A stretch of DNA of 64,000 bases from Sphingomonas sp. (lineage in GTDB: Bacteria > Pseudomonadota > Alphaproteobacteria > Sphingomonadales > Sphingomonadaceae). Shown here piece by piece: positions 47,906 through 61,328 of the stretch. The stretch is taken from positions 50,758 through 114,757 of the forward strand of contig JAFIGU010000077.1 of assembly GCA_017849555.1 (NCBI GenBank). The letters are read 5' to 3'. A program made the position numbers and the translations under genes. A model generated the notes under the pieces. The model made no database searches and was not told where the DNA came from. It saw only the letters and a list, made by a program, of their open reading frames with translations. Each line of letters begins with the position of its first letter. The first letter of the stretch is position 1.

Positions 47906-48518
47906 CGAGCGTCTCCCTTGAAACTCCCCCAGTGCGGTCGGCGTGTTCAGATTCACCTGTCTCGCGCATGAACGTCATCGGTAGGACGGTCGGGAGAGCG
48001 GGTAATTGGAGTGCAGTGTGCGACGAACCGTTGTTGCCTGTACCGCCGTGCAGTGAGTCGAAAGGTCCGCTGCGCATGCTGCGGTTGATCTTGCGCAGCA
48101 ACGCGGCACGCGCGGGATCGATTCCCTCAGCCGTCGTTGCGGCCGGGACATCGCGATCCAAACTATCGCGGGAAATAGCGCACTCGACAGGACTGCGCGC
48201 CACCACAGGCCCGCTTGGCTTCAGGCAAAGGAGCAACAGTCCTGTCGAGAACTTGGCATCACCCGGTTGCGGCGATTGTCGATGCAGTCGACCGGTCGGG
48301 GTGAGCTTTGTAACCACGCTTTGGGGCGTCCAGCGATAGCCACGCAATACGTGTGGACGGAAAGCTCCAGCCGGCGGGGATGAAGCCGAACTCGATCATT
48401 ACATCGTTGCTACCGGATCGCGTGGCTCGATTGGTGGGAACAAATCGGCAGGCGGGCGACGATGCCAGCGCTCGGCGGCTAAACGAGGCATCGCTATTTC
48501 GGCCGGAGGAGGTGCCCT
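47906..48518. other. 613-base gap at the proposed island boundary
   Basis: No credible gene: open frames here have irregular codon use and no recognisable family. The OmpA promoter should lie near 47906-48000. The gap contains a 15-bp copy of the tRNA-Arg(CCG) 3' end (48178-48192) and an overlapping 12-bp inverted repeat (48183-48194 and 48238-48249). Sequence right of this up to the YoaK gene looks like junction debris. Confidence 0.6.
48178..48192 (-). repeat. Putative attachment-site copy of the tRNA-Arg(CCG) 3' end
   Basis: The 15 bases read on the minus strand as TCCTGTCGAGTGCGC, exactly the T-arm/acceptor 3' strand of tRNA-Arg(CCG) at 61254-61268 in the same orientation; 17 of 19 bases match when extended. 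A direct repeat of a tRNA 3' end about 13 kb downstream is what tyrosine-integrase islands leave behind. Confidence 0.6.
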
Positions 48519-49235
48519 TCAAAGATCGTGCGGCTTGGCGGCGGCGGGATGCTGGACGCACAGGATCGTGCCGGCAAAAACGATGAACCCGGCCACCGCC
48601 AGCGGGAAAGCGAGCCCGATCCGGGTCACCATGATCGCGCCGACGCACGCACCGGCGAGGATCGCGACGATCGCGGCGATCCGCCGCATGAGATTGGGGG
48701 CGCTGCCGCCGGCGAGGCGCGAGTCCGCGGCGATCCCGGTGATCGTCAGCGTCAGCACCGTCGTGGTAAGGTCGGGGACCTTGAGCTGGCGGATCGTCGC
48801 ATTGCGGAACCCCATCGCGATCGCGGTCAATGCGATGATGCTGAGGAGCGCCCATTGCGGCCCGAGGCCTTTGGGGTCGAAGAATAATGAGACGATCGCC
48901 GCGATCCACAGCAACCCCGCCTCGATGCTCGCCGCGACCACCAGCCAGTGCCGCAGGGGCTTCTTGCCGAAGGTCTGGCCGGTCCGCCCGCCGATGAATG
49001 CGCCCACCGAGAACGTGAGGAGCGCGACCAGCGTGGTGGCGATCGAGAAGCCCGGCGTCTGCGCGAGCGCGAAGCCGAGAAAGACGATATTCCCCGTCAT
49101 GTTCGCTGTGAACACCTTGCCGAGCCCCAGCACGCTGACCGCGTCGACCAGCCCGGTGGTGGCCGAGAGTAGCAGGAGTAGCCCGGGTAGGGGAGAGGAG
49201 ACGGGTTTGTCTTTAGCGGGGGGTGAACTCGCCAT
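48519..49235 (-). CDS. YoaK/DUF1275 family membrane protein
   Basis: A 238-residue integral membrane protein with six to seven hydrophobic segments. The family signature DAVSVLGLGKVFTANMTGNI (DAxSxLxxGxxFxxNMTGN) is exact. Other segments include SVGAFIGGRTGQ and MGFRNATIRQLKVPDLTTTV. SD AAAGGAGGT precedes the ATG. Its biochemical role is not known; a small-molecule transporter is commonly assumed. Last gene of the minus-strand island operon, 16 bases after the outer-membrane channel gene. Confidence 0.9.
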   Translation of the reverse strand: MASSPPAKDKPVSSPLPGLLLLLSATTGLVDAVSVLGLGKVFTANMTGNIVFLGFALAQTPGFSIATTLVALLTFSVGAFIGGRTGQTFGKKPLRHWLVVAASIEAGLLWIAAIVSLFFDPKGLGPQWALLSIIALTAIAMGFRNATIRQLKVPDLTTTVLTLTITGIAADSRLAGGSAPNLMRRIAAIVAILAGACVGAIMVTRIGLAFPLAVAGFIVFAGTILCVQHPAAAKPHDL

Positions 49236-49251
49236 CGGCGACCTCCTTTGA

Positions 49252-50613
49252 TTAGAAACGGAAATTGGCTTCGAGGCCGATCAGCCGGATCGTTTTGGCC
49301 GGCCCGGTCTCGCGGATGAAGGTGCCGGGCTGGAATAGCGAGAAGGATGTCGACAGCCCCAATTCGGCGGTCGCCTGCCACGAGAGCGTCACCTCGGCCT
49401 CCTTGCCGATGAAGCGTGCGCGGCTGTTGCCGGGCGCGCGGATCAGATTGCCGGGAATGTCGTAGACGCCGTCGGCGGTCGAATAGCGCCAATAGCCCAT
49501 CGCGGCGAGGCTCGCGGACATCGTGCGGTTGAGCCTGGCGCTGACGCGTGGATTGGCGCTGATGATGTTGGTCGGCCCGACCGGGGACAATTCGCCGAAA
49601 TATTTCCCCTTGGGAAACAGCGCATTGAAGGTTCCGAGGTGGCGATCATCGCGTCTGCCGTCGCCGCTGACGACGTTGAAGCGCAGGGTTGCATCGGGGG
49701 TGAGCGGGAGCTTTGCGAGCTTCACCCCGGCCTCGGAGCCGACCGTCCAGGCACCGATCGTCTTTCCCGCGAAATGCCCGAATTGCGCGACGCCCTCGAT
49801 ATTCCAGTGAAGGTTGCCCTTCGCGCCATTGAGGCGGGCACCGATGCTGTGCCGGACCTCGCGTCCCGTCACCCCGCCGAAATGCGCGACGCGGTTGCGA
49901 TAGCCGAGATAATAGAGATCGACGCCTGGAAGCACGGCATAAGCGCCCCACAGCATCTTGGTCGGGGATGTCTTGTCGTCGAAGCTGCCCGGCCCCGGCA
50001 CGACCGGGTTGACCGCGAACAGATTGACCTTGGCCTTACCCAAGGAAACGATCGTTCGCACCCCGTCGAACGCGAGCGGGACATTGGGGCCATAGCGTGT
50101 GCCCACAAGCCGCTCGGTGCCGAGCGAGATCATCTGTCGGCCGCCGCGCAGCGTGATCGCGCCAAGGTCCAGTTCGGCAAAGCCCTGCAACAGGTCGACG
50201 CGGGTCTGGTCGATCGGCGAGGCTGCCGGACGAACGCCTATTGCATAGGCCGCGATCGGCTGGACGAAGGTACGAAACTGCCCGACGTGAAGATCGGCAT
50301 AAGGCATGACGCGCAGCCAGAGATAGCTGTCGTCGGGCGCCGGGCCGCTGCCCCAGAGATTGTTCGCGAAATTCTCGTTGCGGGCACGGATCTCGATCCC
50401 CGTCGAGAGCCAGATGTCGTCGCTGATCGGGATATATTTGAATTTGCCGGTCCAGTGATGCGCGCGCTTTTCGGCATTGGCGAGATGCGCCCAATCCTCG
50501 TCGAAGCGGGTGATCGTGAGCGTCGGCGCCTGCCACGGCTCGGTCGTTTGCGCCGCGACCGGTGCCGCATAACCGACGAGCGCGATGACGGCGGTCGCAA
50601 GTAACCTAGGCAC
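49252..50613 (-). CDS. Alginate-export/AlgE-type outer-membrane channel
   Basis: A 453-residue predicted beta-barrel with signal peptide LLATAVIALVGYAAPVAAQ and terminal Phe (LIGLEANFRF). Sequence blocks GIEIRARNENFANNLWG, RGGRQMISLGTERLVGTRYG and LPGVDLYYLGYRNRVAHFGG match the Alginate_exp (PF13372) pattern, a barrel family also used for uptake of small substrates. No alginate polymerisation genes are near, so alginate secretion is unlikely. It overlaps the DoxX gene by eight bases. In this operon it would serve as the outer-membrane entry port for the substrate of the periplasmic enzymes. Confidence 0.85.
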   Translation of the reverse strand: MPRLLATAVIALVGYAAPVAAQTTEPWQAPTLTITRFDEDWAHLANAEKRAHHWTGKFKYIPISDDIWLSTGIEIRARNENFANNLWGSGPAPDDSYLWLRVMPYADLHVGQFRTFVQPIAAYAIGVRPAASPIDQTRVDLLQGFAELDLGAITLRGGRQMISLGTERLVGTRYGPNVPLAFDGVRTIVSLGKAKVNLFAVNPVVPGPGSFDDKTSPTKMLWGAYAVLPGVDLYYLGYRNRVAHFGGVTGREVRHSIGARLNGAKGNLHWNIEGVAQFGHFAGKTIGAWTVGSEAGVKLAKLPLTPDATLRFNVVSGDGRRDDRHLGTFNALFPKGKYFGELSPVGPTNIISANPRVSARLNRTMSASLAAMGYWRYSTADGVYDIPGNLIRAPGNSRARFIGKEAEVTLSWQATAELGLSTSFSLFQPGTFIRETGPAKTIRLIGLEANFRF

Positions 50614-51037
50614 GCCGCTTCGCTTGCTCGGCGACCAGCGCCGCCAGCACGAACCCGCCGATCAATCCGATATGCTCGAAAAAGGCGTTGGTCGCGGCGA
50701 ACCGCTCCGCGCCTGCCGGCATCGACCAGAAGGCGTTCGCGGTGAAGGCGGCGAGCAGCGTGAAGACCCCGAGCATGCCGGCGCCGAGCCAGATCAACCG
50801 ACCCGACAGGATGAGCAGAGGCCCGACGAGCTCGATCGCGATCGTGATCCCCGCCCACAGCGCCGGCGGGGTCATCCCGAAATGCGCTTGCTCGGCGACC
50901 GCCGCCGGCCAGTTGCTGAGCTTGACGACACCGCCCAGCAGATAGGCGCCGACCAGCATCAACCGCGCAATGAACCAGGTCGGCGCCCATTCGAGAATGG
51001 CGTCGACAAAGCGTGGATCCTGGCCGGCGCGCATCAT
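50606..51037 (-). CDS. DoxX family inner-membrane protein
   Basis: A 143-residue protein with four hydrophobic helices (RLMLVGAYLLGGVVKLSNWP, LWAGITIAIELVGPLLILSG, LGAGMLGVFTLLAAFTANAF, HIGLIGGFVLAALVAEQA), the DoxX layout. DoxX proteins have been linked to quinone-coupled thiosulfate oxidation and to oxidative-stress membrane complexes. Starts at ATG 51037, overlapping the stop of the VOC gene (TGATGATG). A quinone-linked electron-transfer step in the island pathway is possible. Confidence 0.85.
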   Translation of the reverse strand: MMRAGQDPRFVDAILEWAPTWFIARLMLVGAYLLGGVVKLSNWPAAVAEQAHFGMTPPALWAGITIAIELVGPLLILSGRLIWLGAGMLGVFTLLAAFTANAFWSMPAGAERFAATNAFFEHIGLIGGFVLAALVAEQAKRRA

Positions 51038-61015: not shown

Positions 61016-61221
61016 GTAGATGTGGCTCCAGGTCTTGATCCGCTCAGCGCACCGTGGCGAAGCGCCGCCGCCGTGGTTCCCCTTCCACGACGAATATTGT
61101 GACGGACAAGACCGATATAGGGCGACCGAAGAGTATCCTCGCATCAGCCATCCACCACCCCTCGAAATTGCGGAGAGGGGATGAGTCTGGGAACGTCAGC
61201 GATGGCGTTCCGGTATTATGC

Positions 61222-61247
61222 GGAAAAATTATTCGCTTGGCGCGAAT
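61222..61247 (-). terminator. Terminator of tRNA-Arg(CCG)
   Basis: ATTCGC-GCCAA-GCGAAT followed by AATTTTTCC on the minus strand, five bases beyond the tRNA CCA end. A textbook intrinsic terminator, lying just inside the proposed island. Confidence 0.85.
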
Positions 61248-61251
61248 TAAA

Positions 61252-61328
61252 TGGCGCACTCGACAGGATTCGAACCTGTGGCCTCTGCCTTCGGAGGGCA
61301 GCGCTCTATCCAGCTGAGCTACGAGTGC
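61252..61328 (-). tRNA. tRNA-Arg(CCG)
   Basis: 77 bases with encoded CCA. Acceptor GCACTCG/CGAGTGC; D-stem GCTC/GAGC; anticodon arm CTGCC-CTCCGAA-GGCAG with anticodon CCG (reads CGG); T-arm ACAGG-TTCGAAT-CCTGT. Its 3' end is duplicated exactly over 15 bases at 48178-48192, so it is the likely integration target of the intervening block. Confidence 0.96.

Follow-up and report, generated by a model that had tools for sequence, protein, structure and literature searches.

How did a block of accessory genes in a Sphingomonas genome come to be bounded by tRNA-Arg(CCG) on one side and, on the other, by a displaced copy of the 3' end of this gene? The window analysed here, 64,000 nucleotides of Sphingomonas sp. 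contig JAFIGU010000077.1, poses this question within its last third, and the block is probably an old, immobilised island at the tRNA-Arg(CCG) site that has lost its integrase. Three features frame the problem:

61252-61328, minus strand: tRNA-Arg(CCG), with the CCA encoded; the integration target (attB) in the proposed history
61249-61268, minus strand: tRNA-proximal copy of a 20-bp direct repeat, made up of 17 nucleotides of the tRNA 3' end and 3 nucleotides beyond it
48173-48192, minus strand: distal, displaced copy of the tRNA 3' end, matching at 19/20 positions here and at 20/20 in the conspecific genome G139

The exact 15-mer GCGCACTCGACAGGA lies at 61254-61268 and again at 48178-48192 on the same strand, confirming the same-orientation recurrence reported in the initial annotation. 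In the 4.87-Mb assembly of 121 contigs it occurs twice, and a reversed control not at all; being unique outside the tRNA, it is not the common genome-wide repeat that would have told against an island. When the comparison is extended, 20 of 22 bases match, with a best local match of 19/20 (61249-61268 against 48173-48192). The repeat proves stronger than the 17/19 extension first noted: in G139, the sole genome with the same species label, it is perfect over 20 bases, and the window strain differs from it by a G-to-A change at 48177 in the distal copy. The G139 sequence is the same as L088 (Sphingomonas lycopersici MMSM20) across the 250 bases compared, and both may therefore be one strain. 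The two copies are separated by ~13.06 kb. The displaced fragment lies downstream of the tRNA 3' end, has the orientation of the tRNA and reaches the tRNA end, which is the signature geometry of the islands described by Islander. Neither of the two open reading frames (ORFs; at least 90 residues) that overlap the distal copy matches a Pfam family at E 0.1, which places the fragment outside a conserved protein domain.

Short matches of this kind can arise by chance, and the genus gives a measure of how often. The exact 15-mer is present in 12 of 293 other genus genomes. In one of these (G048) it belongs to a genuine displaced tRNA end, while in the remaining 11 it lies at isolated places without a flanking AAATG and without a tRNA gene, two of which (in G128 and G129) look like one homologous place. 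With genomes taken as ~4 Mb, this puts chance occurrences of the 15-mer at roughly 1e-4 per 13 kb. A third-order chain was used to simulate 6 Mb of sequence, in which 13-mers of the 51-nucleotide tRNA end matched twice (0.005 per 14.35 kb, counting one orientation) and 14-, 15- and 16-mers not at all. The earlier judgement that a chance match is unlikely is borne out by the genus-wide count, the simulation and the 20-mer in G139. Taken alone, the 15-mer is evidence of moderate strength, and that of the 20-mer is strong.

The tRNA itself is a demonstrated integration hotspot in Sphingomonas. A 28-bp stretch of the tRNA-Arg(CCG) 3' end matches 167 of the 295 genus genomes searched and is present in at least two copies in 29 of them, as counted by hand; the pattern misses variant tRNAs, so that the other 128 genomes are uninformative. 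All eight of the multi-copy genomes examined have displaced 3' fragments, with repeats of 46-54 bp, ~3-27 kb away, and integrases are confirmed in four of them (G048, G063, G144 and G148). The G048 element is 13.7 kb long (L034 5031-18824), with a 54-bp repeat (51 matches), a Phage_integrase gene ~0.7 kb from the distal copy, and RES-domain, Toprim and exonuclease genes. That of G063 spans 10.4 kb (L037 1128-11576), with a 49-bp repeat and two Phage_integrase genes, one of them beside the tRNA. For G050, G144, G148, G098, G173 and G028 the second copy is a same-orientation 3' fragment 2.9-26.6 kb downstream, with repeats of 46-50 bp; the integrase-bearing elements of G144 and G148 measure 14.2 and 8.9 kb, each with a 47-bp repeat. 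Among four ORFs selected from these six genomes with a loose motif, Pfam finds an integrase in two (G144, G148) and not in the other two (G144, G028). A literature search on Sphingomonas genomic islands at tRNA-Arg returned none on this subject, as judged by title and the start of the abstract.

Some details of these other sites may be recorded. The acceptor stem of the rebuilt G048 tRNA contains a wobble pair, and the displaced copy retains the base that fits the 5' side. Among the products of the G063 element is a TIR-domain protein, for which the Thoeris ThsB model gives a match as well, and ARAGORN calls the G050 fragment as a tRNA with an odd anticodon position. In G045 (C1:2635281-2692243) the tRNA-Arg(CCG) end occurs twice on the same strand at a distance of 57 kb, and close to the first of these is another copy with one mismatch; this stretch is possibly a large element.

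Two relatives lack the block where the comF side and this tRNA are neighbours. G007 is ~90% identical to the window in the aligned flanks, in an assembly that is 84% complete and in 610 contigs. Homology stops at 46887 and restarts at 61250, by the tRNA end, with ~635 bp between the two homology ends. The G007 order, on one 3571-bp contig, is the comF side, tRNA-Arg(CCT), a small gene, tspO and tRNA-Arg(CCG); the 13-kb block is absent, ompA is absent too and tspO occupies the site. In G014 (~74% identical; L277 10434-13237) 6 bp separate the comF-side block from the tRNA-Arg(CCG) 3' end, and the site is without tRNA-Arg(CCT), ompA and the cluster. The initial annotation had named the presence of the block at this position in all close relatives as fatal to an island, and these two do not have it there. 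In the remaining 12 of the 14 relatives compared, the comF-side and the tRNA-Arg(CCG)/dnaJ-side core regions are apart or on different contigs; among the genomes compared they adjoin in this species (46300-61330 in the window), G007 and G014. Whether the two regions are neighbours thus varies among the relatives.

Left of the distal copy lies a further stretch that G007 lacks at its site:

46888-48172: accessory stretch with ompA (47036-47956, minus strand)

The ompA-family gene (~1 kb) is found at other loci in all seven relatives compared, where the homology to the window is confined to the gene and ends near its edges. Two of these loci (in G088 and G191) share their own flanks with each other. 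Because ompA is absent from the G007 site and lies elsewhere in the seven relatives, the stretch left of 48178 was rejected as core. The description of both flanks as core accordingly holds for the tRNA/dnaJ side and fails on the left, where ompA is accessory and the breakpoint lies at 46887. That tspO has simply moved was also rejected, as the better tspO match of G000 is 76% identical to that of G007, against ~90% for the flanks. The right border of the block is well supported, and the left border is given by the repeat alone. Short dispersed repeats at 43055-43124 and 46444-46494 have many further copies in the same genome and in G007.

Between the two copies of the repeat lie the following genes and ORFs:

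48519-49235, minus strand: DUF1275 protein (Pfam PF06912)
49252-50613, minus strand: Alginate_exp-family protein, probably an outer-membrane porin (Pfam PF13372)
50606-51496, minus strand: ORF with a DoxX gene (Pfam PF07681; domain at residues 174-254, true start probably downstream)
51966-54296, minus strand: amidohydrolase, Amidohydro_3 (Pfam PF07969)
54293-54949, minus strand: isochorismatase-family hydrolase, YcaC-like (Pfam PF00857; NF041461 well under cut-off)
55396-56040, minus strand: NarL/LuxR-type response regulator (Pfam PF00072 and PF00196)
56037-59087, minus strand: Reg_prop / Y_Y_Y sensor histidine kinase of 1016 residues
59600-60499, plus strand: alpha/beta hydrolase (Pfam PF00561)
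60515-61015, plus strand: ORF of 166 residues without a family, with homologous DNA by the amidohydrolase in G045

The earlier view of the interior as accessory is supported. A twin-arginine-like start (MTFTRRD) near 53.9 kb, judged by eye, suggests that the amidohydrolase may be a periplasmic enzyme. A minus-strand ORF at 59528-60547 was rejected as a gene, being antisense to the real plus-strand alpha/beta hydrolase gene. NCBIfam profiles gave no hit at cut-off among the matches listed for 10 cargo proteins, and a literature search for three of YtcJ, isochorismatase, DoxX and amidohydrolase together returned no paper on the topic.

Clusters of similar content occur elsewhere. Homologues of the amidohydrolase and the isochorismatase lie together in 28 of 28 relatives' loci, a count that is biased, these being the best-scoring 28. 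The kinase, regulator, alpha/beta hydrolase, isochorismatase, amidohydrolase and porin homologues are together, as in the window, in Sphingomonas sp. LaA6.9, S. laterariae, Sphingopyxis sp. H115 and G045, and the first three also have tblastn matches to DoxX. In all four, the gene order is unlike that of the window. LaA6.9, which among named relatives has the closest kinase after the conspecific (69%), carries its homologous cluster on the same side of tRNA-Arg(CCG) as the window does, ~2.5 kb downstream of the tRNA; its kinase block is inverted, and a chemotaxis-receptor gene lies between cluster and tRNA. G506, labelled as another genus, has the same places as the LaA6.9 record. LaA6.9 is the only one of these four with a tRNA gene in the stretch scanned, and also the only one with any among 22 cluster loci scanned for tRNA genes, which were drawn from 80.

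In the proposed history, a mobile element would have integrated at the tRNA-Arg(CCG) 3' end by tyrosine-integrase recombination, rebuilding the tRNA and displacing its 3'-terminal 20 bp to 48173-48192. The repeat would then be an attachment site, and the DNA now between the copies, with its kinase and regulator, two hydrolases, amidohydrolase, porin, DoxX and DUF1275 genes, would have been brought by integration rather than by later accretion at the hotspot. An integrase, once presumably present, would have been lost along with the other mobility genes, and the block would therefore now be fixed in the species.

A number of results weigh against this history. At 20 bp, the repeat falls short of the 46-54 bp measured in eight relatives. 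The left breakpoint relative to G007 is 46887 and not 48178, ompA being extra as well, and an exact empty site at 48178 was not found in the relatives compared, G007 having tspO there; of the empty site that the initial annotation had proposed to look for, G007 and G014 show the absence of the block, and not a precise junction of the OmpA side with the tRNA. The contig of LaA6.9 shows no second copy of the tRNA end at up to two mismatches. A six-frame PF00589 search finds six matches in the genome and none on the window's contig (C18), in line with the remark that no integrase is visible, and tblastn with the two integrases of G063 and the one of G048 against the island and its margins finds no remnant (best E 0.13). 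Judged by its matches, the cargo is a mosaic accessory cluster: the best listed matches of the amidohydrolase operon lie within the genus, and those of the kinase block in other genera and in G045. The GC content is 0.650 in the island and 0.667-0.676 in the flanks, GC at third codon positions is 0.820 against 0.856, and pooled codon use correlates at 0.96 between 7 island and 5 flank genes, ompA being counted as flank. The change in composition across the borders that had been suggested as a check did not clearly appear, and the block does not show the shift looked for in a horizontally acquired island; this says nothing for or against transfer from a related sphingomonad.

The main rival is accretion at the hotspot behind a truncated older scar. 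Here the 20-bp copy would be the distal leftover of an element like those of G048 and G063, most of it deleted, integrase included, and the cluster would have arrived later by homologous or illegitimate recombination. This is unlikely, though it has several points in its favour. The repeats of relatives at this tRNA run to 46-54 bp (n=8) whereas that of the window ends after 20-22 bp, and the G048 integrase lies ~0.7 kb from its distal copy, so that a single deletion with one end within the copy would take out both. The mosaic cargo fits as well, as does a left side that differs from that of G007 by ompA and tspO. Yet no trace of the G048 element is found by blastn at E 1e-5, nor of the three integrases by tblastn, and an integrase of the junction type would account for 20 bp without any deletion.

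A match by coincidence, with the accessory block having grown between two often-rearranged core regions, could draw on the comF side adjoining tRNA-Arg(CCG) in only G007 and G014 of the 14 relatives, the other 12 having the two apart as far as contigs show, and on the exact 15-mer occurring by chance in 11 of the 293 other genomes. It is made highly improbable by the 20/20 match in the conspecific, which has the right side and orientation, lies at the edge of the cluster and stands beside a proven hotspot, and by a simulation that predicts far fewer than one such match. It also seems a long shot that the block is a non-autonomous island moving in trans through integrases of other elements that target tRNA-Arg(CCG), so that a sensing and hydrolase cluster passes from one sphingomonad genus to another at this tRNA. 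The initial annotation had allowed for either an immobilised or a trans-mobilised island; a tRNA-targeted, integrase-free island is largely supported, with the immobilised form favoured.

An inverted repeat overlaps the distal copy:

48183-48195 / 48237-48249: 13-bp inverted repeat

It is real, and one base longer than the 12 bp first described, but its likeness to an integrase core site does not stand. Integrase core sites have 6-8 bp between their arms, and the 41 bp found here are unsuitable. Such 13-bp inverted repeats were found at three places in the window, this being one, and in G139 there is one mismatch within it.

How, then, does an immobilised island of this kind compare with known systems? 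In the Islander description (PMC4383910), an island consists of an intact tRNA gene and a displaced, same-orientation 3' fragment that reaches the tRNA end and lies outside conserved protein domains, 2-200 kb apart, with an integrase inside. The window shares the intact tRNA, the fragment, the island between them and the length range, but its fragment is just 20 bp with one mismatch in this strain, and the PF00589 search finds no integrase inside the block. Because the integrase is missing, the block is not a strict member; it looks like the decayed product of an Islander-type island. That source also names a T-stem/acceptor junction class of fragments, which a 20-bp fragment would suit, and repeats reported for S. 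meliloti (PMC11476347) are 12-98 bp. The G048 and G063 elements resemble the block in tRNA, side, length (10-14 kb) and accessory content, and differ from it in having integrases, 54- and 49-bp repeats, and RES and Toprim (G048) or TIR (G063) cargo with no metabolic cluster.

With a conspecific genome and a count across the genus, a 15-bp tRNA fragment spotted by eye can be put to the test. In Sphingomonas, tRNA-Arg(CCG) often serves as an integration site, and the locus suggests that a complete sensor-plus-enzyme cluster can become fixed there after the loss of its mobility genes.

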